Shown here: positions 423-27,165 of the stretch, piece by piece
How the letters are laid out: every line of letters starts with the position of its first letter
Position numbering within the stretch: the first letter of the stretch is position 1
NCBI GenBank assembly: GCA_902763885.1
Contig: CACWTU010000005.1
Location: 1 to 64,000, forward strand
Reading direction: 5' to 3'
From: an uncultured Bacteroidales bacterium
Lineage (GTDB): Bacteria > Bacteroidota > Bacteroidia > Bacteroidales > Bacteroidaceae
DNA: 64,000 nucleotides
Notes under the pieces: generated by a model
The model's database searches: none
What the model saw: the letters and a program-made list of their open reading frames with translations, nothing else
Told to the model about the DNA's origin: nothing
Made by a program: the position numbers and the translations under genes

Positions 423-458
423 TTTGAGAACAACGTATCAAAATAGTACGTATCTTTG
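423..458 (+). promoter_or_regulatory. Bacteroidetes-type promoter for the glnK-amt leader
   Basis: TATCTTTG (451-458) matches the TAnnTTTG -7 consensus of Bacteroidetes primary-sigma promoters. A TTTG at 423-426 could be the -33 element, though the 24-base spacing is rather long. Transcription would start about 25 bases before the leader ORF, the same layout seen at the two other leaders. Confidence 0.55.
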
Positions 459-488
459 CCCTCGAAATCAAGAACAAAACAGATTTTC

Positions 489-611
489 ATGTTTATCGGT
501 TTTAAAAATATAACCACTGTTCAGCTGAATAATAACCAGCAGCAGAATAATCAGAACCAGAATAATAATCAGGTTCCGATGGTTATACCTTTTGACCGGT
601 CAGGTATGTAA
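489..611 (+). CDS. Asn/Gln-rich leader peptide of glnK-amt (attenuator)
   Basis: A 40-codon ORF, ATG to TAA, lies between a promoter and an intrinsic terminator upstream of glnK-amt. It encodes 10 Asn and 7 Gln, most of them in the run NNNQQQNNQNQNNNQ (residues 14-28). The stop is followed 25 bases later by the terminator hairpin. The last codons contain GACCGG (594-599), which can pair with CTGGTC (642-647) of the terminator's 5' arm. Inferred role: ribosomes stalled at Asn/Gln codons when the charged tRNAs are scarce would free this segment and prevent termination, switching on ammonium uptake. Codons 20-30 are almost identical in DNA to those of the asnB leader. No protein function for the peptide is implied. 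Confidence 0.8.
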   Translation: MFIGFKNITTVQLNNNQQQNNQNQNNNQVPMVIPFDRSGM

Positions 612-636
612 CTGTTCGTATTAAATCAAAAAATAT

Positions 637-669
637 AAAGGCTGGTCTTTTTGAGACCGGCCTTTTTTT
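637..669 (+). terminator. Attenuator terminator before glnK
   Basis: A 12-bp stem (637-648 with 654-665, one G-T pair) and a 5-base TTTTG loop are followed by a T run to 669. It lies between the leader ORF stop and glnK, so it would end transcription before the structural genes unless the 5' arm is sequestered by the leader-ORF end (594-599). Confidence 0.85.
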
Positions 670-725
670 GTTTCATGATGGATCCAACAAACAAATAATT
701 GTCAAACCCTTTAAAACAAACTAAT

Positions 726-1073
726 ATGAAGAAAATTGAAGCAATCATCCGTAAAACTAAGTTTGAGGATGTAAAGGAGGCTCTCTTTGAGGCTGACATC
801 AACTGGTTCTCGTATTCAGAGGTACATGCCATCGGTCAGGACCGTCAGGACCGTATCTACCGTGGCGTTATGTACAGCACTGACATCATCTCACGTATCG
901 AGATTACTATCATCTGCCGTGACCAGTTTGTTGAGCCTGCCATCAATGCCATTATGGGTGCAGCCCGTACAGGTCAGGTGGGTGATGGCCGAATCTTTGT
1001 GAGCCCCGTGGATGACACATGGTCAATCCGTACCGGCGAACACGGTGATACCGTATTGAGAGACAAGAAGTAA
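726..1073 (+). CDS. glnK: P-II nitrogen regulatory protein GlnK
   Basis: A 115-residue P-II family signal protein; these trimers bind ATP/ADP and 2-oxoglutarate and gate the Amt ammonium channel. MKKIEAIIR at the N-terminus, the T-loop with YRGVMY (Tyr at the position uridylylated in enterobacterial P-II), ARTGQVGDGRIFV and the IRTGE end are all present. An in-frame ATG at 699 would add nine residues not typical of the family, so the start at 726 is preferred. It lies 27 bases upstream of amt, the classic glnK-amt pair, behind the Asn/Gln leader and terminator. Whether the Tyr is modified in this organism cannot be told from sequence. Confidence 0.93.
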   Translation: MKKIEAIIRKTKFEDVKEALFEADINWFSYSEVHAIGQDRQDRIYRGVMYSTDIISRIEITIICRDQFVEPAINAIMGAARTGQVGDGRIFVSPVDDTWSIRTGEHGDTVLRDKK

Positions 1074-1100
1074 ATGTAAAAACAATTAAATCATTAAGTT

Positions 1101-2327
1101 ATGGAAGACATTTCAACAATTAGCGGACTTGATACCGTATGGGTATTGATAGCAGCAATGCTAGTGTTCTTTATGCAACCGGGATTTGCGCTGGTTGAAG
1201 CAGGTTTTACCCGTTCCAAGAACACAGCCAACATATTAATGAAGAACTTTGTGGATTTCATGGTCGGTTCATTCCTTTTCTGGATGATAGGATTCGGCCT
1301 GATGCATGGAAGCGGCAACGGTTTCATCGGAAGCCTACATCTTTTTGACTGGTCATTCTTTGGTGACACAAACGTTCCGGCAGAATGTACCTTGATTTTC
1401 CAAACAGTATTCTGCGCCACAGCCGCCACTATAGTATCAGGCGGTATGGCTGAGAGAACCAAGTTCTCAATGTACATCCTTATTTCAATCATCATCTCTG
1501 TAATCATCTATCCCATTGAGGGTCACTGGACCTGGGGCGGCGGCTGGCTGTCAGAGCTTGGTTTCCATGATTTTGCAGGTTCAACAGTTGTTCACTCTTG
1601 CGGTGGCGTGATTGCTCTTGCAGGTGCAATGGTACTTGGTCCACGTATCGGTAAGTACTCAAAGACTGGTGAGTCTCGCGCTATTCCCGGTCACAACCTG
1701 ACATTCGGTGCTCTGGGCGTATTCATCCTCTGGTTCGGATGGTTCGGTTTCAACCCCGGTTCACAACTTGGTGCTGAGGGTATGGAGAACGCTATTGCAA
1801 TCTCTCATGTAATGTGCACAACCAACATGGCTGCAGCTACAGGCGGTATCTCAGTTCTGTTCCTCACATGGTTGGTTTACGGCAAACCTTCACTCTCACT
1901 GGTATGCAACGGCATCCTGGCTGGTCTGGTAGGTATCACAGCCGGTTGCGACCTGGTATCAATAGGTGGTGCAGCAATCATCGGTGCAGTCTGTGGTATC
2001 GCAATGGTTGGTTCTGTTGCCCTGATTGACAAGATTTGCAAGATTGATGATCCCGTTGGTGCTGTTTCTGTTCATGGAACATGCGGTATCCTGGGTACTC
2101 TCATGACCGGTATGTTTGCAGTTGACGGTGGCCTGTTCTACGGTGGCGGCTGGCACTTCCTGGGTGTTGAGGCTCTCGGTTCACTGGTAACTTGCGCTTG
2201 GTCATTCGGTCTTGGCCTGCTCACATTCGTTATCCTCAAGAAGGTTCATGGCATTCGCGTTGAGGCCAGAGTTGAAGAGGAAGGATTGGATATTTATGAG
2301 CATGGAGAGACTGCTTACAACATTTAA
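1101..2327 (+). CDS. amt: Ammonium transporter Amt
   Basis: A 408-residue polytopic membrane protein of the Amt/MEP/Rh family that conducts ammonium across the inner membrane. Family landmarks seen include the N-terminal GFALVEAGFTRSKN segment, GGWLSELGFHDFAGSTVVHS with the first pore His region, WFGWFGFNPGS, and the VHGTCGILGT segment with the second pore His. Length is normal for the family. There is no cleavable signal peptide. It follows glnK by 27 bases and should be co-transcribed with it under the Asn/Gln leader attenuator. An AT-rich intergenic repeat begins five bases after the stop. Confidence 0.95.
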   Translation: MEDISTISGLDTVWVLIAAMLVFFMQPGFALVEAGFTRSKNTANILMKNFVDFMVGSFLFWMIGFGLMHGSGNGFIGSLHLFDWSFFGDTNVPAECTLIFQTVFCATAATIVSGGMAERTKFSMYILISIIISVIIYPIEGHWTWGGGWLSELGFHDFAGSTVVHSCGGVIALAGAMVLGPRIGKYSKTGESRAIPGHNLTFGALGVFILWFGWFGFNPGSQLGAEGMENAIAISHVMCTTNMAAATGGISVLFLTWLVYGKPSLSLVCNGILAGLVGITAGCDLVSIGGAAIIGAVCGIAMVGSVALIDKICKIDDPVGAVSVHGTCGILGTLMTGMFAVDGGLFYGGGWHFLGVEALGSLVTCAWSFGLGLLTFVILKKVHGIRVEARVEEEGLDIYEHGETAYNI

Positions 2328-2331
2328 ATAT

Positions 2332-2469
2332 AATTGAAAATTGAGAATTGAAAATTGAAAATTGGTGAGATTTGGATTTTGATTCGGAATTAAAATTAAA
2401 AACATCTATATAAAATAGTTGAGTAGACCTACGCAGATGCTTGTAATTCTCAATTTTCAATTTTCAATT
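2332..2469. repeat. AT-rich ATTGAAA heptamer arrays, inverted pair
   Basis: At 2332-2364 there is a direct array of ATTGAAA/ATTGAGA heptamers; at 2445-2469 the complementary array (AATTCTCAATTTTCAATTT) occurs in the other orientation, so the two could fold together. The same arrays recur near 14880-14902 and 46988-47020. No coding signal is seen between amt and the gene at 2583. Confidence 0.7.
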
Positions 2470-2490
2470 ATGTCACTTCGTTCCATGATT

Positions 2491-2554
2491 CTTGTCGCGA
2501 CTCGGGATAGAAAGTAAACTTTCTCTCCTCTCACTGCTCCAAGAATTCTCAATT
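2491..2554. repeat. Intergenic repeat with hairpin, copy 1
   Basis: The reverse complement of 14801-14867: conserved flanks (TTGTCGCGACTCGGGATA and CTCTCCTCTC.CTGCTCC) surround a short perfect hairpin GAAAGT-aa-ACTTTC (2510-2523). The hairpin sequence differs from that of the other copy while pairing is kept. Located upstream of the outer-membrane protein gene at 2583. Confidence 0.7.
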
Positions 2555-2582
2555 AAAATAACGCCTTACAAATTAAAGAATT

Positions 2583-3275
2583 ATGAAAAAGATTTTCTCA
2601 TTAGTAACATTAGTGATAGCAATTGTGGCACCTGTAAGTGCCGAAGTGGAAACAACCGTAGGAGCCGATGTGGTCAGCCGTTATATCTGGCGTGGCTGTG
2701 ATCTGGGCGATGCAGCTTTTCAACCCACATTGGGCGTAAGCGCCGCAGGATTTGACCTGTCACTCTGGGGAAGTACCGGTATAGTAAACTTTACTGATAC
2801 CAAAGAGTTTGATGTAACCTTGAGCTACGGCATTGCCGGACTCAGCGTAGGCGTAACAGACTATTGGTTCAGCACAGGTATTGAGCCATACGGACGCTAT
2901 TTCGGATATAAGGAAAAAGAGACCGATCATGTGTTTGAGGCATTCCTGGGCTATGATCTTGGATTTGCATCCATATCCTGGTACACAAACTTTGCCGGTA
3001 ATGATTTCAAGGCCAACGGAGACCGTGCGTACAGCTCATACTGTGAGATATCGGCACCCTTCAGTGCTTTTGGAGCTGACTGGACCGCAACTGCCGGATT
3101 CGTTGCATCAGAGAGCGTTGAGTATGCAACTGAAGGATTCTCAGTTACCAATCTCTCTGTCACTGCCAAAAAAGAGCTTGAGATATCGGACCGTTTCAGC
3201 CTTCCTATATCGGCAGGACTCACCGTTAACCCCTGCTCTGAGATGGCCTACCTGGTATTCGGAATCTCATTCTGA
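2583..3275 (+). CDS. Putative outer-membrane beta-barrel protein
   Basis: A 230-residue protein with a signal peptide (MKKIFSLVTLVIAIVAPVSA, cleavage likely after SA). The mature part alternates hydrophobic and polar residues with many Gly and aromatic residues (VSRYIWRG, LSYGIAGLSVGVTDYWF) and ends in FGISF, a terminal Phe typical of outer-membrane barrels. The N-terminal VSRYIWRG.DLG pattern resembles TorF-type putative porins. It follows amt but is separated by 255 bases of repeats, so co-transcription is uncertain; a role in nutrient passage is only a guess. Confidence 0.7.
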   Translation: MKKIFSLVTLVIAIVAPVSAEVETTVGADVVSRYIWRGCDLGDAAFQPTLGVSAAGFDLSLWGSTGIVNFTDTKEFDVTLSYGIAGLSVGVTDYWFSTGIEPYGRYFGYKEKETDHVFEAFLGYDLGFASISWYTNFAGNDFKANGDRAYSSYCEISAPFSAFGADWTATAGFVASESVEYATEGFSVTNLSVTAKKELEISDRFSLPISAGLTVNPCSEMAYLVFGISF

Positions 3276-3294
3276 TTTGTTCATTTTTTGAAAG

Positions 3295-3360
3295 TAACCC
3301 GAAAGGGAAGTCCCCCTGTGTCATGTGAGATGGCACAGGGGGACTGTCCCTTTCGGGTCA
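3295..3360. repeat. REP-like long inverted repeat between convergent genes
   Basis: Two arms (about 3295-3323 and 3330-3360) are inverted copies of AACCCGAAAGGGACAGTCCCCCTGTG with a one-base deletion in the left arm. The right arm supplies the stop codon of the - strand gene at 3358. Probably acts as a bidirectional terminator between convergent genes. Confidence 0.85.
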
Positions 3361-3906
3361 CTTCAGTTTCTTCATCTCATAACCCAGGCGGTGCAGCTCA
3401 ATAGCTGCGCCTATTGAGAACATAACCTGAACAGCGCGGGCATAGACGTAGAATGCACGGCGGCTTTGAGGCTCTATTTTCTCCTGGCGTATGAATGTGA
3501 CAGCGGTCTGGGCGCATGTCTGCATCAGGGATGTGATCTGCTGTGCTTGCTTGCCATCGGGCAACAGACCAAGTATGTCTTTCAGAATATGGTCATCCAT
3601 ATCATCAAAACCGTTAGGCCCCAGCAGCACGCTGTAGGGCTGATCTTTCAGCTTGTTCCAATTGCGGTTCCACCAGCAGGCTACAGCCATACCAATATAA
3701 CCGGCCCAGGCTACTGAAACCGTAGGGTAGGCGGCAATCTCCTTCACGCCGTCGGCAATATACTCCGGTGCAAGTTCCTTCCACTTAAGGTCTATGTCAT
3801 CGGACCTGAGCAGAATGCCTTCAAGCATCCCTGCATCGGTACATATCTTTAGTAATTCCCTCTCCAGACGGTCCTGGAACATGTTGTAGTACAACTGGTC
3901 TTCCAT
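3358..3906 (-). CDS. Conserved hypothetical protein
   Basis: A 182-residue cytoplasmic protein without signal peptide; I do not recognise a named family. It starts MEDQLYYNMFQDRLERELL, is rich in helix-forming residues and has one moderately hydrophobic stretch (VSVAWAGYIGMAVACWW, about residues 63-79) flanked by charged residues. Its stop codon is the last base triplet of a REP-like arm. Its promoter is probably the - strand -7 box at 3927-3934, divergent from the alpha-galactosidase gene. No functional inference is offered. Confidence 0.75.
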   Translation of the reverse strand: MEDQLYYNMFQDRLERELLKICTDAGMLEGILLRSDDIDLKWKELAPEYIADGVKEIAAYPTVSVAWAGYIGMAVACWWNRNWNKLKDQPYSVLLGPNGFDDMDDHILKDILGLLPDGKQAQQITSLMQTCAQTAVTFIRQEKIEPQSRRAFYVYARAVQVMFSIGAAIELHRLGYEMKKLK

Positions 3907-3926
3907 ATCGTGATATTATTGGACAG

Positions 3927-3949
3927 CAAAGGTAATTTTTTTACCTTTG
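3927..3949. promoter_or_regulatory. Divergent -7 boxes in a perfect inverted repeat
   Basis: CAAAGGTAA (3927-3935) and TTACCTTTG (3941-3949) form a 9-base perfect inverted repeat. Each arm read outward contains TACCTTTG, a full match to the Bacteroidetes -7 TAnnTTTG. The + strand box serves the alpha-galactosidase gene (ATTG at 3918-3921 as possible -33, 20-base spacer) and the - strand box serves the hypothetical gene at 3358. Confidence 0.55.
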
Positions 3950-3977
3950 TGCCATTCACAACTTACTGACAAATATT

Positions 3978-5207
3978 ATGAGAAAACTTACAGGAGCGCT
4001 GCTTATGGCAGCCATGCTGGTTCCTGATTGGAGCGCAGCACAGAAATGGGAAGGTTTGGCCGATACGCCCCAGATGGGCTGGAACAGCTGGAACAAGTTC
4101 GGACAGAACATCAGTGAGAAACTTATCCGTGAGCAGGCCGATGCAATGGTGGCTGAAGGACTGGTTGATGCCGGATACATTTATCTCAATATGGATGACT
4201 GCTGGCACGGCGAGCGTGATGCCGACGGATTTGTTCAGCCTGATCCCAAGACATTCCCTTCAGGAATCGAGTCTCTGGCCGATTACGTTCACTCTAAAGG
4301 TATGAAACTGGGTATATATTCCGATGCGGGCCGTAAGACCTGCGCCGGCCGTACCGGTAGTTTCGGTCATGAGTATCAGGATGCCCTGCAGTATGCCCGC
4401 TGGGGAATTGACTACCTTAAATATGACTGGTGCTCAAGTGAGAACATCAACCCGCGTGGTGCATATACCCTGATGCGTGACGCTCTGCGTGCCGCCGGCC
4501 GCCCCATACTGTTCAGCATGTGCGAGTGGGGTACCAACAAGCCCTGGGAGTGGGCTGAGAATGTAGGCCACTCATGGCGTACCACCGGCGATATCACTGC
4601 CCGTTTTGCAGGCAACCCCCGTCAGCGCGGCTGGGGGCAGACCGTTCTGAGCATCATTGACCAGAACGCTCCCTTACGCAAATACGCAGGTCCGGGCCAC
4701 TGGAATGACCCCGATATGCTTGAGGTTGGCAACGGCATGAGCGTCAATGAGGACCGCGCCCACTTTAGCATGTGGTGCATGATGGCCGCTCCTCTGATTC
4801 TTGGTAATGACCTTTCAAAGATGACCGATGAGACCCGCGCCATCATTCTTAACAAAAAGGTGATAGCCATTGATCAGGACAAGCTGGGAGTTCAGGGTCT
4901 GCGCTACAAGACAGAAAACGAGATAGAGTATTGGTTCAAGCCGCTGGAAGGTGGTGACTGGGCATTCTGCCTGCTCAACCGCAGCACAGAACCCGTAGAG
5001 TGCAACATCAACTGGCAGGACTACAACTTTACCGATGATGAGGTGAGCCACCTTTCAACATCATTTGACGCCATAACCTATAACATTGAGAATCTGTGGG
5101 AATCAAACGCCAAGAAGGCAAAGGTGGGCACCACCAAGAAGGCTCTCAAGGTAACGGTTCCCGGCCACGATGTGGCAATGTACCGCCTCACGCCAAACAA
5201 AAAATGA
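3978..5207 (+). CDS. Alpha-galactosidase, glycoside hydrolase family 27
   Basis: A 409-residue secreted or periplasmic enzyme that releases terminal alpha-linked galactose from oligosaccharides. It has a signal peptide (MRKLTGALLMAAMLVPDWSAAQ), the GH27 opening TPQMGWNSWNKFG, the YLKYDWCSS motif with the catalytic nucleophile (Asp at residue 150), and GHWNDPDMLEVGNG carrying the general acid/base Asp. C-terminal beta-sandwich residues follow. Length fits the family. The TGA stop is the first triplet of a double REP-like element. With the nearby GH10 xylanase it suggests plant-polysaccharide use, although no SusCD pair is adjacent. Confidence 0.93.
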   Translation: MRKLTGALLMAAMLVPDWSAAQKWEGLADTPQMGWNSWNKFGQNISEKLIREQADAMVAEGLVDAGYIYLNMDDCWHGERDADGFVQPDPKTFPSGIESLADYVHSKGMKLGIYSDAGRKTCAGRTGSFGHEYQDALQYARWGIDYLKYDWCSSENINPRGAYTLMRDALRAAGRPILFSMCEWGTNKPWEWAENVGHSWRTTGDITARFAGNPRQRGWGQTVLSIIDQNAPLRKYAGPGHWNDPDMLEVGNGMSVNEDRAHFSMWCMMAAPLILGNDLSKMTDETRAIILNKKVIAIDQDKLGVQGLRYKTENEIEYWFKPLEGGDWAFCLLNRSTEPVECNINWQDYNFTDDEVSHLSTSFDAITYNIENLWESNAKKAKVGTTKKALKVTVPGHDVAMYRLTPNKK

Positions 5208-5274
5208 CCCAAAAGGGACAGTCCCCTTTGGGCCATTTTTTGGACACATTGGGGACTGTCCCCTTTGGGTCACT
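5203..5274. repeat. Double REP-like element between convergent genes
   Basis: Two consecutive palindromic units (about 5203-5238 and 5239-5274), each with AAGGGGACtGTCCCCTTTGGG-type cores and GACCC/GGGTC ends. It begins at the stop codon of the alpha-galactosidase gene and its other end contains the stop codon (5270-5272) of the - strand SGNH hydrolase gene. Confidence 0.85.
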
Positions 5275-5929
5275 TTATAGCTTCAAGCAGCTGATCACAG
5301 ATGGCCTTCATTCCGCTTATGGATGGATGGCCATTCTGTTTTTCTATGTCGTGCAGTTCAATAAGCTGTACGCCGTAGTGCTTGCAGACTTCACGCATGG
5401 ACTCGTTGACATCTTCATTCAGCTCAGAGTTCAGGATAGAGTAGAGCTCAGCCTTGGGATACTGTTTCTTGAGCATATCCAGCAGGCATGCCAGAGCCGG
5501 ACGGAAATTCTTGCAGTCATCCTTGGTCCAGTCTGAATACTGGTACTCGCCCATTGGAGCACGTGCCCATGCATCGTTGGTGCCGCCAAAAACAAAGATT
5601 ATATCCGGGTTGCCCAGCTTGTCAACGCGTGAGATGAAGTTGTTACGTGAAGCATCCATACGGCCATATCCAGTACCACAGATGGTTGTGCCGCCCCATG
5701 AATCATTCTTTTCAAGCACATATCCCTTAGCCTTGATGTAAAGGTCCCACCAGGTCTGGCTAACCTCTGTCACATCATTGCGGTCATTTGGATAGAACGG
5801 ATTGTAACCCTCAGGGTTCACGCCCTGGAATGTGGAGTAAGAGTCACCCAGGATAGAAACTTTCTTAGTCTGGGCTGATGTTGCCATAACGGCCATAGCC
5901 ATAAGCACAATTGAAAACAGTTTTCTCAT
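5270..5929 (-). CDS. SGNH/GDSL-type hydrolase, secreted
   Basis: A 219-residue hydrolase with a signal peptide (MRKLFSIVLMAMAVMATSAQ). An ATG four codons further upstream (5941) is possible, but MRKL gives the cleaner signal peptide. Block I is SILGDSYSTF with the Ser nucleophile, block III is FVFGGTNDAWA (GxND), and NGHPSISGM near the C-terminus supplies the catalytic His. Such enzymes are esterases acting on acylated sugars or lipids; the substrate cannot be fixed. It converges on the alpha-galactosidase gene, so the two are separate transcripts. Confidence 0.85.
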   Translation of the reverse strand: MRKLFSIVLMAMAVMATSAQTKKVSILGDSYSTFQGVNPEGYNPFYPNDRNDVTEVSQTWWDLYIKAKGYVLEKNDSWGGTTICGTGYGRMDASRNNFISRVDKLGNPDIIFVFGGTNDAWARAPMGEYQYSDWTKDDCKNFRPALACLLDMLKKQYPKAELYSILNSELNEDVNESMREVCKHYGVQLIELHDIEKQNGHPSISGMKAICDQLLEAIK

Positions 5930-5980
5930 AATCATTGTCAATTATATTTGATGCGGTAAAGTTACACAAAAAAACATAAG

Positions 5981-6012
5981 GTGGCACAGGGGGACTGTCC
6001 CCTTTGTGTCAT
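5981..6012. repeat. REP-like palindrome
   Basis: GGCACAGGGGGACtGTCCCCTTTGTGTC, an imperfect inverted repeat, sits in the divergent region between the SGNH hydrolase and the exonuclease gene. This copy is therefore upstream of genes on both sides rather than at a gene end. A TACATTTG -7 box for the exonuclease gene follows at 6022-6029. Confidence 0.8.
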
Positions 6013-6070
6013 TTTTTTGCGTACATTTGTCTAAACTTTATGACGAACAAACAATTTGTGAGCTTAAGAG

Positions 6071-6562
6071 ATGAGAGATTTTGCGGCAATAGACTTTGAA
6101 ACTGCTAATAATGAGCGCAGTTCTGTTTGTTCAGTAGGTGTTGTCATTGTTCGTGATGGGGAGATAGTGGATACTTTCTATTCTCTTATCCAGCCGGAAC
6201 CTAATTATTATAACTATTGGTGCACTCAGGTACACGGCTTGTGCTGCCAGGATACCGATGACGCACCGGTGTTCCCAAAAGTATGGGCACAGGTGGAACC
6301 TTTGATCCAAGGTCTGCCATTGGTTGCCCATAACAAACCGTTTGATGAAGGCTGCCTGAAGTCCGTCTTCCGCGTCTATCAGATGGATTACCCTGATTAT
6401 GAGTTCTATGATACCCTCTGTGTTTCACGGCGAGTGCTCCCTGATTTGGAGAACCACCAGCTGCAAACCGTCGCAGCAGCCTGCGGCTACTGCTTAGAGA
6501 ATCATCACCACGCGCTTGCTGATGCTGAAGCCTGTGCATGGATAGCAAGAGAAATACTATAA
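6071..6562 (+). CDS. DEDDh 3'-5' exonuclease (DnaQ/epsilon-like)
   Basis: A 163-residue single-domain exonuclease. Exo I FAAIDFETAN gives the first Asp and Glu, Exo II VAHNKPFDEG the second Asp, and Exo III HHALADAEACA the His and last Asp, so all DEDDh residues are present. Stand-alone proteins of this size remove nucleotides from DNA or RNA 3' ends in repair or RNA turnover; the exact role is not deducible. A TACATTTG -7 box lies at 6022-6029. The acetyltransferase gene starts only 6 bases after the stop, so the two probably form an operon. Confidence 0.88.
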   Translation: MRDFAAIDFETANNERSSVCSVGVVIVRDGEIVDTFYSLIQPEPNYYNYWCTQVHGLCCQDTDDAPVFPKVWAQVEPLIQGLPLVAHNKPFDEGCLKSVFRVYQMDYPDYEFYDTLCVSRRVLPDLENHQLQTVAAACGYCLENHHHALADAEACAWIAREIL

Positions 6563-6568
6563 GAAATA

Positions 6569-7186
6569 ATGAAACAGGAAATAAATCCCAAGGATACTAA
6601 TAGAGCCATTGCATTTGAGCTGTGGACAAAGTCGCCTATGCCGATGGTGACGCTCACTAAGACGTTTGACGTAACGCGGCTGCGCAAGGTGAGCCGAAGG
6701 CGCGGAATGAAGTTCAATATGTTGCTGTGCTGGTGCATCGGTCGTGCTGCATCAAAGATAGAGGAGTTTTACATGCTGCCCCAGGACGGGAAACTATACA
6801 AATATGACCGCATGGCCATCAACGTGATAGCGAACAATGTTAAGGGCGGACTGAGTTTCTGCGATGTTGCCGTCAGCGATGATCTGGAGAAGTTTAATGC
6901 TAATTATCTTCACCTGACAGAGACCATCAGCCAGACCTGTCAGGATATCCTGGATGATGAAGCCGTGATCGTAGGCACATCGGCAGTTACGGGTACGGAA
7001 CTGGACAGCCTCGTCAATCAGTATAGCGGCATCTTCAACAATCCCTTTGTGGCGTGGGGCCGATACCGCAAAGGCTGGCTCAAGACAACCTTGCCCATCT
7101 CCTTCCAGTTCCACCACGCCCAGATGGACGGTTGCCAAGCCGCCCGTTTTCTGGAAGAACTTCAAAAGACAATTAATACGATATAA
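6569..7186 (+). CDS. CatA-like (type A chloramphenicol acetyltransferase family) protein
   Basis: A 205-residue cytoplasmic protein of the CAT family. The C-terminal FQFHHAQMDGCQAARF matches the catalytic HHxxxDG motif, with the His acting as general base in acetyl transfer from acetyl-CoA, and the N-terminal FELWTKSPMPMVTLTKTFDVT resembles the CAT fold start. Chromosomal CatA-like proteins often do not confer resistance, so chloramphenicol is only one possible substrate. It follows the exonuclease gene by 6 bases. A REP-like unit starts 8 bases after the stop. Confidence 0.8.
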   Translation: MKQEINPKDTNRAIAFELWTKSPMPMVTLTKTFDVTRLRKVSRRRGMKFNMLLCWCIGRAASKIEEFYMLPQDGKLYKYDRMAINVIANNVKGGLSFCDVAVSDDLEKFNANYLHLTETISQTCQDILDDEAVIVGTSAVTGTELDSLVNQYSGIFNNPFVAWGRYRKGWLKTTLPISFQFHHAQMDGCQAARFLEELQKTINTI

Positions 7187-7193
7187 TGGAATT

Positions 7194-7222
7194 GTGACCC
7201 AGGGGGACAGTCCCTCTGTGCC
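7194..7222. repeat. REP-like palindrome, degenerate
   Basis: GTGACCCAGGGGGACAGTCCCTCTGTG is a shortened member of the family at the end of the CAT-like gene. A GTGCCATTTTGAGTCA remnant continues to the mtgA stop at 7261. Confidence 0.7.
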
Positions 7223-7260
7223 GCCGTTCACTCCAAATCTTCCCGATGTGCCATTTTGAG

Positions 7261-7926
7261 TCATTGCATCTGCTCAAGCAGAGCGTTGCAGCGGTTGCGC
7301 TGGTAAGTAGTAAGTTTTGTGGGATTGTACTTTAGCGGGTTGGGCAGGCAAATGGCAATTGATACGGCCTGCCTGCGAGTTAGTTTGTTAGCGTGACATC
7401 CAAAAAAATGTTCTGCGGCGGCTTCGGCCCCATAGATGCCGGGGCCCATCTCAATCACGTTAAGGTAAACCTCCATTATCCGGTCCTTGCTCCAAAGCAG
7501 TTCAATAAGGACGGTCCAATAGGCCTCCCATACTTTTCTGATGCCTGTACGGGAGCCGAATGAAAATACGTTTTTGGCCGTTTGCTGCGATATGGTGCTG
7601 CAGCCACGCAGCTTGGTCCCTTTGTTCATGTGATCATCCCGCATCTTCCTGATCTCATCCCAATCAAAACCATGATGGTCATAGAACTTCTGATCCTCAG
7701 TCAGAACCACAGCTTTGGCAAGTTGGGGCGATATCTTATCCAGGCTAACCCATGTGTGCCGTGTTTCATACGTCTCTACTTTCCTGTTCTGGATGGTACG
7801 TTTAAGCATAAGCGGAGTGTATATTACGGGAACATAGCGCAACAGCAGCACCAGAGCCAGGCTCAGTGCTATAAAGAGTAGGGGGAGCCTTACAAGTAGC
7901 TTATATTTCCGCTTGCGTTTCTTCAT
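7261..7926 (-). CDS. mtgA: Monofunctional peptidoglycan glycosyltransferase MtgA
   Basis: A 221-residue GT51 enzyme that polymerises lipid II into glycan strands at the outer face of the inner membrane. A basic N-terminus (MKKRKRKYK) precedes one TM segment (about residues 10-30), then the GT51 signatures TEDQKFYDHHGFDWDEI (catalytic Glu), GCSTISQQTAKNVF, and KDRIMEVYLNVIEMGPGIYGAEAAA. There is no transpeptidase domain, so it is the monofunctional type. The frame stays open 56 codons further upstream, but that part crosses a REP-like element and a pseudogene, so the start at 7926 is chosen. Confidence 0.93.
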   Translation of the reverse strand: MKKRKRKYKLLVRLPLLFIALSLALVLLLRYVPVIYTPLMLKRTIQNRKVETYETRHTWVSLDKISPQLAKAVVLTEDQKFYDHHGFDWDEIRKMRDDHMNKGTKLRGCSTISQQTAKNVFSFGSRTGIRKVWEAYWTVLIELLWSKDRIMEVYLNVIEMGPGIYGAEAAAEHFFGCHANKLTRRQAVSIAICLPNPLKYNPTKLTTYQRNRCNALLEQMQ

Positions 7927-8006
7927 AAACGGATAATCCAAATCAGTTGCAAAAATACTTATTTGATACGTAGAACAATCACAGGCTAAAGAGAATCTGA
8001 AGGCAT

Positions 8007-8041
8007 AATGGCACACGGGGACAGTGCCTACTGTGCCATTT
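8007..8041. repeat. REP-like palindrome, degenerate
   Basis: AATGGCACACGGGGACAGTGCC...TGTGCCATT, an imperfect family member. It lies over the end of the RhuM-like remnant and supplies that fragment's in-frame stop. Confidence 0.7.
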
Positions 8042-8246
8042 TTCCAATCAGTTCCTTCGCTGTGATATCCCTCATCAGGGTGAAAGCAAACCATTTACGG
8101 AATTTAGTGCCTCGTTTGGACTTTACTCTATAGCCAACCGATATTATTACATCAAGGTTGTATGCTGTGTATTCGTAGATTTGATCACCCTCGGTACCCA
8201 TATGTGCAAAATTTGCACATGTGATATCTTTCTCAAGTTCCTGTCC
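8028..8246 (-). pseudogene. RhuM-family protein remnant
   Basis: Read on the - strand, about 72 codons are open, but no ATG stands at the left end and the fragment is bounded by stops. The translation contains CANFAHMGTEG, then YNLDVIISVGYRVKSKRGT and KFRKW, the characteristic core of virulence-protein RhuM family members. A full gene would be several times longer. The upstream part is replaced by the end of the YdeI-like gene, and the downstream end runs into a REP-like palindrome that provides the stop. I read it as a decayed gene from a former mobile or restriction-type island. Confidence 0.72.
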
Positions 8247-8249
8247 TTA

Positions 8250-8825
8250 TCAAACAATTCTGCCAAAATCACTCCACCCAGCCTGCATCTTGCCGTTGTG
8301 GCAGTCCTCGATGAATTTCTGCAGGGTCTTCTGGGCGTATTCGGGACGGTTGGTGTGCTGATAGTGTTGGATTCGATCTACCTTGATGCGGCGGTAGTTC
8401 TCGGGGCAGGAGCGGTAGAAACGCCAGGCTTGGGCATCGGCCTTAATGGCGTTGATTACCCAGTCCTCATAGACAAACAGCTTGGGGTTGAGGTCTGGGG
8501 CTACGGCAAGGCCGGCGGATGTCATCTCACCGGTCTTGATGAGGCGTCGGCATCGGACCAGGTTCTGCTCGCACCAGTTGCTACGCTTGCGGCGCGGGGT
8601 GAAGTGCTGGATGGGCTTGCCGTCATCGATGCGTTTCTGGGTGCTGTCAATCCAGCCAAAGCACAGCGCCACCTCTACGGCATCCACGTACCGCACTACG
8701 CCCGGGCAGTCAGCTTCAGCTCGGTTTATGCGCAGCCAGAAATCACTCACCTTATCGTGATTATCCTTGTACCATTGGTACAGTTCCTGGCGGGTGTGTA
8801 TGTCAAGCAGGTTGGTTACTTCCAT
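8250..8825 (-). CDS. YdeI/OmpD-associated family protein
   Basis: A 191-residue cytoplasmic protein of the YdeI-like family. Seen motifs are LYQWYKDNHDKVSDFWLRINR, VRYVDAVEVALCFGWIDSTQKRID and FTPRRKRSNW, which together define these proteins. Family biochemistry is poorly known, with proposed stress or peptide-resistance links. An ATG 13 codons upstream (8864) lies inside a REP-like element, so MEVTNLLDIHT (8825) is the better start. It sits three bases from the RhuM remnant. Confidence 0.82.
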   Translation of the reverse strand: MEVTNLLDIHTRQELYQWYKDNHDKVSDFWLRINRAEADCPGVVRYVDAVEVALCFGWIDSTQKRIDDGKPIQHFTPRRKRSNWCEQNLVRCRRLIKTGEMTSAGLAVAPDLNPKLFVYEDWVINAIKADAQAWRFYRSCPENYRRIKVDRIQHYQHTNRPEYAQKTLQKFIEDCHNGKMQAGWSDFGRIV

Positions 8826-8856
8826 ATCAGTTCTTCTTCTGCGAATATAATCAAAA

Positions 8857-8891
8857 AGGGGCACAAAAAGAACCGTCCCCTTTGTGCCCCT
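8857..8891. repeat. REP-like element, GGGGACGGTTCT subtype
   Basis: AGGGGCACAAA...TTTGTGCCCCT arms enclose an asymmetric core (AAGAACCGTCCCC). It lies between the end of the xylanase gene and the start of the YdeI-like gene. The same subtype recurs at 28559-28654 and 47335-47480. Confidence 0.85.
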
Positions 8892-8896
8892 GCGGA

Positions 8897-10021
8897 TTAG
8901 GGGATGTTGAGGACCGCATCAAATGCGGGCTTGGGGGTGCGGTCGCGGTTAAAGAGGAGGGGGTAGTTGGTGCGGTTGGGGATGGGGTAGCCGTTCTTCC
9001 AGGACATGCCGTCTTGGAGGCCCCAGATGGTTACGCGGTCTATCTTGTCACGGCGGTCATAGAATATCTGCATCAGCTCCTTGTAGCGGGCGGTCAGCTG
9101 AGCCTGTACATCATCGGGGAGTCCGTTCTTGTAGGGGTCCAGATAGGTTTCAAATTCCTCCAGCTGGTAGAGCGGGTCCTGGAGTGACTTGCCTATTACC
9201 TGGCCCTCCTTGGTGAGCGGAAGCACATCGACATCAAGTTCAGTTATCATGACCTTTACTCCCAATGCGGCAAAGGTGTCAATGGCGGCGGTTATGTATT
9301 CATTCTTGGGGAAATTAAGACCCCAATGGGCCTGTATGCCGATGCCGTCTATCCTGATACCGTTCTTTTGGAGCATTCTGACCATGCGGGCTATTCCGTC
9401 ACGTTTGGAGGGGCGCCACGCGTTGAAATCGTTGTAATAGAGCTCGGCGTTGGGGTCATACTGATGGGCAAACTGGAATGCCAGGCGTACCACCTCATCG
9501 CCGTTGCCGTTAAAGGCATCGGTCCACAGCGTCTTGCGGTATGATCCGTCATTGTCTATGATCTCATTCACAACATCCCATGCGTTGATCTTACCGGCAA
9601 AATGTCCGGCTACGGTCTCTATGTAACTGCGCATGGTCTCAACCATCTCATCGTGGCTCTTGGGGGTGCCGTCAGCGTGATTGAAAAAGAAATCAGGGGT
9701 CTGGTTATGCCATACCAGGGTGTGGCCCAATGCCCACAGGCCGTTATCCTGGGCAAACTGTACATAACGGTCAGCAGCCTGAAAGTTCCAGGTGTCAGGT
9801 CTGGGGTGCAGCACCTCAGCCTTCATATCGTTCTCAGGCGATATGGCGTTGAACTGCTGGAGTATGATTTGGGCGGAACGGTTGTCACGGCCGCTCACAA
9901 TCTGCGAGTTTACGGCGCATCCTATTTTGAATGCATCGGCATACGCGCTTTTAAGGGTTTTCTGGGCAAATGCGGGGCATATTGTGAGCACCGCTGCGCA
10001 TAGAATGATATGCTTTCTCAT
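8897..10021 (-). CDS. Endo-1,4-beta-xylanase, glycoside hydrolase family 10
   Basis: A 374-residue secreted or periplasmic enzyme hydrolysing internal xylan bonds. It has a signal peptide (MRKHIILCAAVLTICPAFAQ), ISPENDMKAEVLHPRPDTWNF at the substrate cleft, GHTLVWHNQTPDFFF, INAWDVVNEIIDN with the acid/base Glu, and MITELDVDVLP with the nucleophile Glu, all GH10 hallmarks. An earlier ATG at 10048 adds nine residues without benefit; MRKH is chosen. It has no attached binding module. Its end lies six bases from a REP-like element. Confidence 0.94.
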   Translation of the reverse strand: MRKHIILCAAVLTICPAFAQKTLKSAYADAFKIGCAVNSQIVSGRDNRSAQIILQQFNAISPENDMKAEVLHPRPDTWNFQAADRYVQFAQDNGLWALGHTLVWHNQTPDFFFNHADGTPKSHDEMVETMRSYIETVAGHFAGKINAWDVVNEIIDNDGSYRKTLWTDAFNGNGDEVVRLAFQFAHQYDPNAELYYNDFNAWRPSKRDGIARMVRMLQKNGIRIDGIGIQAHWGLNFPKNEYITAAIDTFAALGVKVMITELDVDVLPLTKEGQVIGKSLQDPLYQLEEFETYLDPYKNGLPDDVQAQLTARYKELMQIFYDRRDKIDRVTIWGLQDGMSWKNGYPIPNRTNYPLLFNRDRTPKPAFDAVLNIP

Positions 10022-10070
10022 AACTGTAAGGTTAGTTAATTGTTTCATTAATTACAAAAGTACTAAAAAA

Positions 10071-10143
10071 GTGACACAATAGGGACAGTCCCCTTTGTGT
10101 CATTTTGAAAACGGCACAAAGGGGACTGTCCCTATTGTGTCAC
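10071..10143. repeat. REP-like pair forming a large inverted repeat
   Basis: Two complete palindromic units (10071-10103 and 10113-10143) are reverse complements of each other (GTGACACAATAGGGAC... and ...GTCCCTATTGTGTCAC), giving a cruciform-capable 73-base structure. It sits upstream of the xylanase gene and about 95 bases before the asnB leader promoter. The rest of 10022-10292 shows no coding signal. Confidence 0.85.
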
Positions 10144-10237
10144 TTCTGTCAAAATGCTGCGCTATTATATATAAAGGTGTCAAAATGTAAATGGAGAAAA
10201 ATTTTTTGTGATAAAGTGATATTTTCTTGCCAAATGA

Positions 10238-10269
10238 TTTGGTGGATAGAAAAAGTGTGCTTAAATTCG
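10238..10269 (+). promoter_or_regulatory. Promoter of the asnB leader
   Basis: TTTG (10238-10241) and TAAATTCG (10262-10269, one mismatch to TAnnTTTG) are separated by 20 bases. The predicted transcript would start about 18-20 bases before the leader ATG at 10293. Confidence 0.55.
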
Positions 10270-10292
10270 CACCGTAATTAGCAAAACGAGAT

Positions 10293-10403
10293 ATGTCTAA
10301 AGGTTTGGTTTACATAGTAGCCAATAATAATCAGAATAATAATCAGAACCAGAATAATAATCAGGTTCGGATGGTTACTCCTTTAGACCAGCGGGAAAGC
10401 TAA
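10293..10403 (+). CDS. Asn/Gln-rich leader peptide of asnB (attenuator)
   Basis: A 36-codon ORF between promoter and terminator upstream of asnB. It contains 10 Asn and 5 Gln, concentrated in NNNQNNNQNQNNNQ (residues 11-24). Bases 10338-10368 are identical to 546-576 of the glnK leader, and similarity continues through a V-x-MV-x-P-x-D ending. GACCAG (10386-10391), near the ORF end, can pair with CTGGTC (10438-10443) of the terminator's 5' arm. Inferred role: sensing of charged tRNA-Asn (and tRNA-Gln) by ribosome stalling, fitting control of the asparagine biosynthetic gene by its product. Confidence 0.83.
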   Translation: MSKGLVYIVANNNQNNNQNQNNNQVRMVTPLDQRES

Positions 10404-10431
10404 TCATTCAGGTATATACAAAACAAAACAT

Positions 10432-10464
10432 AAAAGACTGGTCAATCTGATCAGTCTTTTTTTT
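10432..10464 (+). terminator. Attenuator terminator before asnB
   Basis: A 13-bp stem (10432-10444 with 10448-10460, one G-T pair) with a 3-base loop ends in an eight-base T run starting inside the 3' arm. It is placed 28 bases after the leader stop and 53 bases before the asnB start. Confidence 0.88.
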
Positions 10465-10516
10465 GTTTGATACGCCAGAGCAGAGAACAGAAAACAATAA
10501 AAAAACAATAATTACT

Positions 10517-12211
10517 ATGTGTGGAATAGTTTCAATCTTCAGGATTAAGAAGCAGTCAGAGCAGCTCCGACAGCAGGCATTGGAAATGAGTCGTAGGATT
10601 CGTCATCGCGGTCCCGACTGGAGCGGTATCTGGTGTGGTGGCTCTGCCATCCTGGCTCATGAGCGTCTGAGTATAGTTGATCCCCAGTCTGGCGGTCAGC
10701 CTCTGTTCAGTGAGGACCGTCTGCAGGTGCTGGCCGTAAACGGTGAGATATACAACCATCAGGCAATACGCCGTGAGTATGAGGGCCGATACACGTTCAG
10801 TACCGGCAGTGACTGTGAGGTTATCCTGGCGCTGTACCGCGACGCCGTACGTGCCGGCGGCAGCCAGGAGGATTTTATCCGTATGCTTGAGAGATTGAAC
10901 GGCATTTTTGCCTTTGCCCTGTATGATGCTGAGCGTGACGAGTATCTGGTGGCTCGTGACCCGATAGGCGTCATACCTCTTTATATAGGTAAGGATGCGC
11001 AGGGACATATCTGCGTGGCCAGTGAGCTTAAGGCACTGGAGGGTATCTGCACTGAGTATGAGCCGTTCCTGCCGGGACATTTCCTGAGCAGCCGCAGCGG
11101 ACATGTGGAGCGCTGGTACACCCGTGACTGGTTCAAGTATGATGCCGTTAAGGATAACAAGGCCGATGTGGCTGAGCTGCGTAAGGCTCTTGAGGCAGCA
11201 GTAAAGCGTCAGCTTATGAGTGATGTTCCTTACGGAGTGCTCCTGTCAGGTGGTCTGGACAGCTCCGTGATATCGGCCATAGCAAAGAAGAACGCTGCAC
11301 GCCGTATTGAGACCGATGACCAGCAGGAGGCCTGGTGGCCGCGTCTGCACTCATTTGCAGTGGGTCTTAAGGGTGCGCCTGATCTGGCCAAGGCCCGTGA
11401 GGTGGCAGATCACATTGGTACCGTACATCATGAAATCAACTATACCGTCCAGGAGGGTCTGGATGCTATCCGTGACGTGATCTACTTCATTGAGACTTAT
11501 GATGTTACCACAGTACGCGCCAGCACACCTATGTATCTGCTTGCCCGCGTGATACGCAGCATGGGTATCAAGATGGTGCTTAGCGGTGAGGGTGCCGATG
11601 AGGTGTTTGGAGGTTATCTCTATTTCCATAAGGCTCCCGATGCCCAGGCATTCCATGAGGAGACCGTACGTAAGCTTTCTAAACTGCACCTTTATGACTG
11701 CCTGCGTGCCAACAAGTCACTGGCAGCATGGGGCGTTGAGGGCCGCGTGCCGTTCCTGGACAAGGAGTTCCTGGATGTGGCAATGCGTATGAACCCCGCC
11801 GCCAAGATGTGCCCGGGCCATGAGATTGAGAAGCGTGTGGTACGTGAGGCTTTTGCCGATATGCTGCCTGAGAGCGTTGCATGGCGCCAGAAGGAGCAGT
11901 TCAGTGACGGAGTGGGGTACAGCTGGATTGACTCACTCAAGGAGATCACCGCAGCTGCCGTAAGTGATGAGCAGATGGCTCATGCAGCAGAGAGGTTCCC
12001 CATCAACACTCCCATGAACAAGGAGGAGTACTACTACCGCTCAATATTTGAGGAGCATTTCCCAAGCGCATCAGCAGCCAAGTGCGTACCCAGCGTACCG
12101 AGCGTAGCCTGCTCTACTGCTGAGGCTCTGAAATGGGATGCAAGTTTCAGCAAACTGAACGATCCGAGTGGACGTGCAGTGAAAGATGTTCACGAAAACG
12201 CTTACAAATAA
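10517..12211 (+). CDS. asnB: Asparagine synthase, glutamine-hydrolysing
   Basis: A 564-residue cytoplasmic enzyme converting Asp, Gln and ATP to Asn. The chosen ATG makes MCGIVSIF, so Cys2 becomes the N-terminal nucleophile of the class II glutaminase; the ORF's earlier ATG at 10463 would bury it. HRGPDWSG, VNGEIYNH and the later ATP-pyrophosphatase loop GVLLSGGLDSS confirm both domains, as does SGEGADEVFGGYLYFHKAP. The gene lies behind an Asn/Gln leader and terminator and 390 bases before glnN, which has its own leader. Product feedback by Asn-tRNA attenuation is the natural reading. Confidence 0.96.
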   Translation: MCGIVSIFRIKKQSEQLRQQALEMSRRIRHRGPDWSGIWCGGSAILAHERLSIVDPQSGGQPLFSEDRLQVLAVNGEIYNHQAIRREYEGRYTFSTGSDCEVILALYRDAVRAGGSQEDFIRMLERLNGIFAFALYDAERDEYLVARDPIGVIPLYIGKDAQGHICVASELKALEGICTEYEPFLPGHFLSSRSGHVERWYTRDWFKYDAVKDNKADVAELRKALEAAVKRQLMSDVPYGVLLSGGLDSSVISAIAKKNAARRIETDDQQEAWWPRLHSFAVGLKGAPDLAKAREVADHIGTVHHEINYTVQEGLDAIRDVIYFIETYDVTTVRASTPMYLLARVIRSMGIKMVLSGEGADEVFGGYLYFHKAPDAQAFHEETVRKLSKLHLYDCLRANKSLAAWGVEGRVPFLDKEFLDVAMRMNPAAKMCPGHEIEKRVVREAFADMLPESVAWRQKEQFSDGVGYSWIDSLKEITAAAVSDEQMAHAAERFPINTPMNKEEYYYRSIFEEHFPSASAAKCVPSVPSVACSTAEALKWDASFSKLNDPSGRAVKDVHENAYK

Positions 12212-12284
12212 GCCTTTTAAATATCGGTTTGTTGTAATAAACATTTTTTTAATGTCATTTTGAGAAAAAAATATGAGAAATAGT

Positions 12285-12315
12285 TTTCAAATTGCAACAT
12301 TTATTGCTACTTTTG
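12285..12315 (+). promoter_or_regulatory. Promoter of the glnN leader
   Basis: TACTTTTG (12308-12315) matches TAnnTTTG; a TTTC at 12285-12288 with 19-base spacing is a weak -33 candidate. The leader ATG follows 33 bases downstream. Confidence 0.5.
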
Positions 12316-12348
12316 CATCGTTTTTGAAACATAAAGACAAGCAAAGGC

Positions 12349-12489
12349 ATGAAAGTGTTGAAAGGATATGGTTCTGTATATGCTCTGGAGGTTGGTTTCA
12401 ACCCTAAGCGTAATGCCGGGAATAATAATTCCGGCAACTGGAACCGTTTTACCGGACATCAGGCTTATCTCTCTCCAGCCGGGGAGTAA
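12349..12489 (+). CDS. Asn-rich leader peptide of glnN (attenuator)
   Basis: A 46-codon ORF with seven Asn codons, six of them clustered in NAGNNNSGNWN (residues 22-32), but only one Gln. Its sequence is otherwise unrelated to the two other leaders, so the shared Asn cluster is probably functional rather than inherited. CCAGCC (12475-12480), five codons before the stop, is a perfect complement of GGCTGG (12531-12536) in the terminator's 5' arm. Placement, size and architecture match the glnK and asnB leaders. It points to Asn-tRNA charging as the common signal. Confidence 0.72.
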   Translation: MKVLKGYGSVYALEVGFNPKRNAGNNNSGNWNRFTGHQAYLSPAGE

Positions 12490-12527
12490 GCCAAACGATA
12501 AAACTAAAAATCTTTCAAAACAAACAT

Positions 12528-12562
12528 AAAGGCTGGCCCGCTTGGACTGGCCTTTCGTCTTT
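12528..12562 (+). terminator. Attenuator terminator before glnN
   Basis: AAAGGCTGGCCC and GGACTGGCCTTT pair over 12 positions with one mismatch and two G-T pairs around a GCTT loop. The T tract is interrupted (TTTCGTCTTT), so it is weaker than the other two. It lies 38 bases after the leader stop and 40 bases before glnN. Confidence 0.72.
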
Positions 12563-12601
12563 AATAATTAACAAGAACAAAAACACTAAAACAATACAAT
12601 T

Positions 12602-19435: not shown

Positions 19436-19455
19436 ATCTTAAAGAAGAAGACACT

Positions 19456-20802
19456 ATGGGAAATCCAAGAGCTTTCTTGACCGTACCCAGACAGGACGCC
19501 GGTCATAGACCAATACATGAGAGAATAGCTGACTTTGGTGAGGTTGAGCAGACGCTGAATGACAGCAGCCGCCAGCAGCAGGCTTCACGCTGCATGGACT
19601 GCGGCGTACCGTTCTGCCACTGGGCTTGCCCGCTGGGCAACAAGCAGCCTGAATGGCAGGATGCCGTTTACAAAGGCAAGTGGGAACTGGCTTACAAGCT
19701 GCTTTCAGCCACAAATGACTTCCCTGAGTTTACGGGTCGTATCTGCCCGGCACTCTGCGAGAAGAGTTGTGCCCTGAACCTTTGCATCGATGCTCCCGTT
19801 ACCATCCGTGAGAACGAGTGCTCCATAATTGAACACGCTTTCCGCGAGGGTTTTGTCAAGGTTCATACTTATGAGCGTAACGGAAAGAAGGTTGCCATCA
19901 TAGGTGCAGGTCCTTCTGGTCTGAGTGCTGCAGTACGTCTCAACGCGCTTGGTTATGAGGTAACCCTCTTTGACAAGATGCCGTCGGCCGGCGGACTGGT
20001 ACGTTACGGAATTCCTAACTTCAAGCTTGACAAGTATGTGATAGACCGCCGTATGGCTATCATGGAGCAGGAGGGAATTAAATTCCAGTTCAACACAATG
20101 GTTGACCTTAACGATCTGCCCAAGGGCTTTGACGCATACATCATATCCAACGGTACACCTACCGCACGTGACCTTAAGATTCCGGGACGTGAGTTCAAGG
20201 GCGTATATTTTGCCCTGCAGATGCTTACACAGCAGAACCTGCGTCTGGCAGGACAGGAGTTCAGCCCTGAGGAGACCGTATCGGCCAAGGGTAAGAAGGT
20301 ACTGGTTATAGGTGGCGGTGATACCGGTAGTGACTGCATCGGAACATGTCATCGTCAGGGTGCCGTAAGCGTGACCCAGATTGAGATCATGCCTAAGCCG
20401 CCGGTAGGTTACAACCCCGCAACACCTTGGCCGCAGTGGCCTAACATTCTCAAGACCACAACCAGTCATGAGGAGGGTTGCGAGCGCCGCTGGTGCCTTA
20501 CTTCAAACAAGTTCCTGGATGACGGTAAGGGTAACCTTAAGGGCGTTGAGGTTGAGACTGTAGAGTGGGTACCGGATCCTAACGGTGGCCGCCCGCAGAT
20601 GAAACCTACAGGCAACAAGGAGATCATTGAGTGCGATATGGTGCTGCTGGCTATGGGATTCCTCAAGCCTGAGCATCCGCAGTATGCTGAGAACGTGTTC
20701 CTGGCAGGTGATGCCAAGAACGGTGCCAGCCTTGTGGTCCGCGCACTTGCAAGCGGCCGTGAGACTGCTGCAAAGGTTGATGCATATCTCAAGAGTAAAT
20801 GA
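19456..20802 (+). CDS. gltD: Glutamate synthase small subunit
   Basis: A 448-residue FAD and NAD(P)H-binding partner of GltB that feeds it electrons. The N-terminal [17 protein letters not shown] cysteines bind 4Fe-4S clusters, with a second set at [26 protein letters not shown] is the FAD dinucleotide fold and [14 protein letters not shown] the NAD(P) fold. It ends one base before dapF, so gltBD, dapF and probably dapL form one transcript. Confidence 0.95.
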
Positions 20803-27163: not shown

Positions 27164-27165
27164 CT

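Follow-up and report, generated by a model that had tools for sequence, protein, structure and literature searches.

A family of asparagine/glutamine-codon leaders as probable transcription attenuators of nitrogen genes in a Bacteroidales genus and its relatives

In a stretch of 64,000 nucleotides (nt) from an uncultured Bacteroidales bacterium of the Bacteroidaceae (contig CACWTU010000005.1, positions 1 to 64,000; hereafter the window), the genes glnK-amt, for ammonium uptake, and asnB, for asparagine synthesis, are each preceded by a short open reading frame (ORF) with a long run of Asn and Gln codons and by a predicted intrinsic terminator. We propose that these leaders, here called N/Q leaders, belong to one family of ribosome-mediated transcription attenuators that read the charging of tRNA-Asn and tRNA-Gln; judged from sequence and predicted RNA folding, the probability of this reading is about 0.76. 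The original prediction had placed such leaders before three units, the third being the glutamine synthetase gene glnN. The order promoter-like box, short ORF, terminator-like hairpin and gene was confirmed for all three, as were the Asn counts of the leader ORFs (10 of 40, 10 of 36 and 7 of 46 residues for glnK, asnB and glnN), and domain and family matches identified the downstream genes as P-II glnK, amt, asnB and a type III glutamine synthetase. Attenuation by the ribosome, also part of that prediction, is favored by the shared architecture, by Asn/Gln codons that are kept while the peptide changes, and by the nitrogen genes downstream, but glnN turned out to be a weak member.

The glnK leader begins with a promoter-like box, TATCTTTG (451–458; all window features described here are on the + strand), of a type that we take to be the Bacteroidota -7 box. 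Its ORF, MFIGFKNITTVQLNNNQQQNNQNQNNNQVPMVIPFDRSGM (489–611), encodes 40 residues, 10 Asn and 7 Gln among them, with 15 Asn or Gln codons in unbroken succession (528–572). Strand 2, the predicted antiterminator partner (GACCGGTC, 594–601), begins 15 nt ahead of the stop codon, and the predicted intrinsic terminator occupies 637–670, with its 5' arm (strand 3) at 640–647. The hairpin at 637–665 with its U tract has a folding energy of -19.1 kcal/mol, and none of 200 shuffled sequences was equally stable. The genes that follow are glnK (726–1073, Pfam PF00543) and amt (1101–2327, TIGR00836 above cut-off). Across the genus and its nearest kin, GlnK itself is divergent (44–90% identity); the adjoining Amt is 93–99% identical. 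The asnB leader is built in the same way: a box, TAAATTCG (10262–10269), that is one base from TANNTTTG; an ORF, MSKGLVYIVANNNQNNNQNQNNNQVRMVTPLDQRES (10293–10403), of 36 residues with 10 Asn and 5 Gln and an unbroken run of 14 Asn/Gln codons (10323–10364); strand 2, GACCAG (10386–10391); and a predicted intrinsic terminator (10432–10465), whose hairpin at 10432–10460 with its U tract has -14.7 kcal/mol, again matched by 0 of 200 shuffles. The gene itself, a glutamine-hydrolysing asparagine synthase, lies at 10517–12211 (NF006949, TIGR01536).

The codon run, the complementarity of strands 2 and 3, the terminator fold, the promoter box, the gene set and their conservation are all seen in the sequence. 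The mechanism predicted from them is one in which ribosomes stall, termination is prevented, tRNA charging is the signal and amide starvation induces the genes. When Asn and Gln are plentiful, the ribosome would reach the stop codon and cover strand 2, an ACCAGUC-like segment near the stop. With strand 2 covered, the GGCUGGU-like strand 3 would pair with strand 4, and transcription would end. When Asn or Gln is scarce, the ribosome would stall within the run; strand 2 would then take strand 3 before strand 4 exists, and RNA polymerase would enter the operon.

Within the genus, an N/Q leader is present at 20 of the 20 loci where glnK was found and an N/Q ORF at 19 of 22 asnB loci, including one truncated copy (L122). 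At asnB locus L126 the leader DNA is present with its frame broken; at L132 and L137 there is no leader, and asnB closely follows amt. Leaders outlive their genes in contig G018:C40, where one (L329) stands before a lost glnK and a truncated amt start and another (L158, counted among the 19) before an asnB pseudogene. Between genera the peptides differ but the N/Q run stays, as found in genera g39, g46 and g54 and in two loci of metagenome-assembled genomes, L040 and L061 (for example SNNQQQNNQQQNQEQNQ in L198 and FQQQSQSESNNNSQNN in L061); three blocks recur across genera, namely the codon run, strand 2 and the terminator. Most amt loci outside the genus have no leader: an N/Q ORF was found within the upstream 1 kb in 2 of 27 named loci (L040–L065, L104), and an N/Q leader in 9 of 40 amt loci of the family (L183–L222, picked from the 86 family genomes having an amt match), including L196, recognized through the covariance model R1 described below. 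The asnB loci of other genera (L223–L248, the best-scoring 26 of 93 genomes with a match) gave 0 of 26.

Further members were sought with R1, which was built from 51 glnK and asnB leaders and searched in 61 genomes (37 of the same genus, 24 of other families) and in 151 genomes of the family. Up to 50 candidates per genome were scored in the first search and up to 20 in the second, and the counts are lower bounds. At least 62 matches reached 57 bits or more in the 61 genomes, and the next match, at 44.8 bits, has no N/Q leader. Thirty-nine of the 62 were already in the model, three were further glnK or asnB leaders (asnB in G029, asnB in G036 and the leftover glnK leader in G018) and 20 were new places. 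One of the new places lies at a contig end; the other 19 precede a readable gene, in every case a glutamine amidotransferase: glmS in 13 (the next gene, where read, being pyrG or purF), pyrG in five and purF in one. One of these places, before glmS-pyrG, lies elsewhere in the genome of the window itself (L304; TIGR01135, TIGR00337). In other genomes glmS and pyrG were recognized by eye from near-identical starts, and purF, gltB, glnN and carA by domain. The 151 family genomes added at least four places outside the model: gltB twice (L319, L320), glnN followed by carA (L318) and glnK (L334); those at gltB and glnN are in sister genera.

Matches of at least 57 bits occur in at least 24 of the 37 same-genus genomes and in at least 16 of the 151 family genomes (genera g1, g39, g46 and g54); among the matches listed for the 24 genomes of other families, none reached that score. 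Weaker matches, of 45 bits or less, contained no N/Q leader where inspected (L321/L335, L323, L330–L333). One weak match, L322 (G082:C1, about 480–640 on the reverse strand), is a leader with Trp codons, MYQNQNTYWWWRNSRPQTS, and a terminator; the genes after it resemble trpB, trpE and trpG, and we read it as a trp attenuator of the established type within the same bacterial family. The target set of the original prediction was drawn too narrowly: glmS, pyrG, purF and gltB also belong to it, as may gltBD, carAB and purF by way of the glnN transcript. The element before glmS-pyrG in the same genome, together with those before pyrG, purF and gltB in relatives, argues for a single nitrogen/glutamine regulon as the likely arrangement.

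The codon run was compared with chance in 8,128 distinct ATG-initiated ORFs of 20–60 residues, taken from the loci gathered to that stage. At a threshold of at least 8 Asn or Gln per 15 residues, 63 ORFs passed; 62 are leaders of the N/Q family and one is unrelated (L111, Paenibacillus), so the Asn/Gln content of the leaders greatly exceeds what chance would give. The TANNTTTG box lies no more than 70 nt upstream of the start in 64 of 72 distinct leaders, where mononucleotide shuffles predict 3.6, and mostly 26–39 nt from the leader ATG. Of 77 distinct leaders, 75 keep an unbroken reading frame. Every intact leader has both Asn and Gln codons, the latter reduced to one to three in the glmS leaders, the gltB leaders and some pyrG leaders. 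The leaders had been proposed to sense Asn and possibly Gln. The codons are those of Asn and Gln together, and Gln exceeds Asn in four glnK leaders of the sister genus g39 (L198, L203, L205, L208). A separate recurring feature is the presence of Cys codons, often paired (UGUUGU), right before strand 2 in glmS, pyrG and some glnK leaders (for example L304, 486–572), giving peptide segments such as PCCFTSR, CCSSSR and RCCLW.

Each of the 82 aligned leaders, 77 of them distinct, has a segment downstream of the run that is complementary to the 5' arm of the terminator over at least six contiguous pairs. The run ends 8–29 nt ahead of strand 2 in the intact leaders. In 68 of the 77 distinct leaders the stop codon begins 11–19 nt after strand 2 does, and in five it begins 6–8 nt earlier than strand 2. 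Judged by distances, a terminating ribosome could mask strand 2, and one stalled in the run could leave it free, in all leaders except two gltB leaders and the two with broken frames (L122 and L126). In folds cut off right after the 5' arm, before strand 4 is made, and with the upstream RNA masked as a stalled ribosome would do, the 2:3 helix had a predicted probability of at least 0.5 in 65 of 77, and when strand 2 was hidden, the terminator had a probability of at least 0.9 in 77 of 77. As a probe for a protective 1:2 hairpin, which would cause termination when the leader is not translated, the whole leader was left free; the 2:3 probability then drops far more in glnK leaders (mean 0.26) than in asnB leaders (0.83). 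Covariation of the terminator helix is 0.352, compared with 0.243 in shuffled alignments, a value that none of 500 shuffles reached, although these shuffles do not control for relatedness. In the antiterminator helix, five cells in two pairs are changed on both sides, which 20 of 500 shuffles also attain; the purF leader L305 and L061 have G-C in place of A-U, and three rows have A-U in place of G-C at the outer pair.

The glnN leader of the window departs from this pattern. It has a promoter-like box, TACTTTTG (12308–12315), an ORF of 46 residues (12349–12489) with 7 Asn, a single Gln and an Asn-rich stretch at 12421–12444, strand 2, CCAGCC (12475–12480), and a terminator-like hairpin (12528–12560). 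The hairpin at 12528–12555 is weaker than the other two (-12.8 kcal/mol; 13 of 200 shuffles equally stable), and its U tract is interrupted. Strand 2 also lies within a predicted local hairpin that encloses the stop codon (12462–12491) and could oppose antitermination; few of its pairs vary among 12 copies, and this conservation is too high for the hairpin to be tested by comparison. Those 12 glnN leaders retain an ORF ending in PAGE-stop, strand 2 and the hairpin. R1 gives glnN leaders just 17–32 bits, and the one in the window (21.7 bits, expectation value 9e-4) ranks below two reverse-strand echoes of other terminators. We regard it as a probable diverged member of the family and give it less weight as evidence than the other two.

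Downstream of this leader lie glnN (12602–14788, PF12437), gltB and gltD (14972–20802; NF008730, TIGR01317), and carA, carB and purF (22851–28599; TIGR01368, TIGR01134). Together with two genes between them they form the co-directional run glnN-gltB-gltD-dapF-dapL-carA-carB-purF, in which the names dapF, dapL and carB are our presumptive assignments. Because the glnN leader stands at the head of this run, many glutamine-using enzymes could be under such leaders, provided that the genes are co-transcribed, as their shared direction suggests. In some same-genus genomes, such as G029, glnN lies about 150 nt after asnB; no N/Q leader was found in the asnB-glnN gap of the genomes with this order, so glnN there could be under the asnB leader. 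At the end of the run, after purF, the window carries a gene of the formate/nitrite-transporter family (PF01226, 28691–29305). The window also contains eight copies, at up to one mismatch, of the palindromic repeat GGGGACWGTCCCC (309, 3339, 5214, 5251, 5990, 7203, 10081 and 10121), where 0.04 would be expected. They lie between genes or at gene ends where inspected and resemble a family of repetitive extragenic palindromes.

Several observations weigh against the attenuator reading. Because R1 was trained on glnK and asnB leaders, the scores of those leaders are circular, and independent evidence comes only from the other finds. Among the matches listed, 13 of the 37 same-genus genomes have none that reaches 57 bits (amt and asnB matches are absent from the same 13), and no match lies at asnA, though that gene is present. 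The frame is broken in two asnB leaders (L122, L126) that precede genes with open frames, and the stop codon of the two exceptional gltB leaders lies 37 nt past the first base of strand 2. The 2:3 probability falls below 0.5 in 12 of the 77 leaders, with an average of 0.34 for the glmS leaders; lowest-energy folds contain the 2:3 helix in three of five fragments (glnK, L198 and L061), not in those of asnB and glnN. At equilibrium folding the terminator always wins, which means that any switch must be kinetic. Covariation in the antiterminator is 0.122 against 0.181 in shuffles, the score exceeds shuffles in neither of two alignments, and 85.6% of its cells are paired, against 87.3% after shuffling; its core, CCRG/CYGG, is almost invariant. 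Complementarity tested leader by leader is modest (p 0.01–0.28 in 11 leaders), and in two of the 11 (L039, an asnB leader, and L040) a segment other than strand 2 gives the best helix.

Finally, the Asn-rich segment is missing from 5 of the 12 glnN leader copies, in which ORF and terminator nevertheless persist. Such copies fit another explanation, in which a genuine leader and terminator respond to translation in general or to its coupling with transcription, and the N/Q run is a mere slow stretch that senses no amino acid. We consider this unlikely, because the run consists specifically of Asn and Gln codons in the glnK, asnB, glmS, pyrG, purF and gltB leaders, and wherever a gene downstream of a leader could be read it serves amide-nitrogen metabolism, the sole exception being G018, where glnK-amt has been lost. 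Control of the terminator by a ligand or protein, such as a glutamine riboswitch or an RNA-binding regulator, with the ORF incidental, would accommodate the conserved strand 2 and terminator and the local hairpin of the glnN leaders. It is distinctly less probable still: the window has no Rfam match at gathering threshold except a tRNA, the best overlap with a leader at a lax threshold in six loci was L20-leader (28.7 bits against a gathering threshold of 58.7), and what is conserved across genera includes the codon run alongside strand 2 and terminator. That the Asn/Gln-rich peptide functions in trans, with a terminator that just sets basal expression, is the most improbable of the three, since genera share little of the peptide besides the run, which travels with strand 2 and the terminator in the model-found copies, even though the peptide is conserved in the genus and nine 40-residue glnK leaders vary mostly at third codon positions (12, against 5 and 4; in seven 39-residue leaders, less clearly, 10 third, 5 first and 9 second positions vary).

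Under the attenuator reading, the signal would be amino acid supply as seen by tRNA charging. Asparaginyl-tRNA synthetase (AsnRS) scored above its cut-off in 21 of 21 genomes and glutaminyl-tRNA synthetase (GlnRS) in 20 of them, so charging could report free Asn and Gln. A narrower idea, in which AsnB is the sole source of Asn and Asn thereby stands in for Gln, was dropped once asnA was found in G000 and in 16 of 20 other genomes. The original prediction further held that control does not lie solely with NtrC-like regulators. None of the 21 genomes passed the curated ntrC cut-off, but shorter proteins resembling sigma-54 activators match below it, so other control may exist. We regard as evenly balanced a broader reading for part of this Bacteroidales family, in which a single family of Asn/Gln attenuators was copied before glnK-amt, before glnN and gltBD for glutamine and glutamate synthesis, and before the majority of glutamine amidotransferase genes (asnB, glmS, pyrG, purF, carAB), and in which it replaces an NtrC-type master regulator, with Gln- and Asn-tRNA charging as the nitrogen signal.

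Ribosome-mediated transcription attenuators are established for the trp, his, leu, thr and ilv operons of Proteobacteria. The N/Q leaders share with them a leader ORF carrying regulatory codons in succession, an intrinsic terminator, biosynthetic genes downstream and a segment able to pair with the 5' arm of the terminator. They differ from the trp/his type in using codons of two amino acids, Asn and Gln, in placing a single leader family before several operons, and in having P-II, ammonium uptake and glutamine amidotransferases among their targets; no protective strand 1 is established for them either. T-box riboswitches of Firmicutes, which exist for Asn and other amino acids, bind tRNA directly. 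The same species, through its charging, would be sensed by the N/Q leaders, likewise acting on termination, and no T-box match to Rfam was found in the window and the six loci.

The same Rfam search found no match to Bacteroid-trp RNA (RF01692), which PMC2864571 tabulates as a probable cis-regulatory RNA of Bacteroidetes. A Trp-codon leader before trpB-trpE-trpG occurs here in L322; the N/Q leaders have other codons and other genes. The aptamers of the cyanobacterial glnA RNA (RF01739) and Downstream-peptide RNA (RF01704), given as riboswitch candidates in the same paper (PMC2864571), were also not matched in this search; the N/Q leaders differ from both in containing a codon run. The original prediction knew of no such system in Bacteroidetes, and no description of Asn/Gln attenuators of this kind turned up in the open-access library searched; subscription papers were outside the scope, and novelty in print is uncertain.

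In Prevotella ruminicola 23, amtB, glnK, asnB, glnN, gltB, gltD, dapF and pyrG are reported to be among the nitrogen genes that change with ammonium supply (PMC5552732), the direction of the changes being given inconsistently there. The likeness to the present case lies in the kind of gene set. If the proposed reading is true, an attenuator family on such a gene set would provide a concrete mechanism for nitrogen-gene control in the group. Attenuation would then reach beyond single biosynthetic pathways to a nitrogen regulon, and Asn and Gln would join the amino acids known to be sensed in this way.

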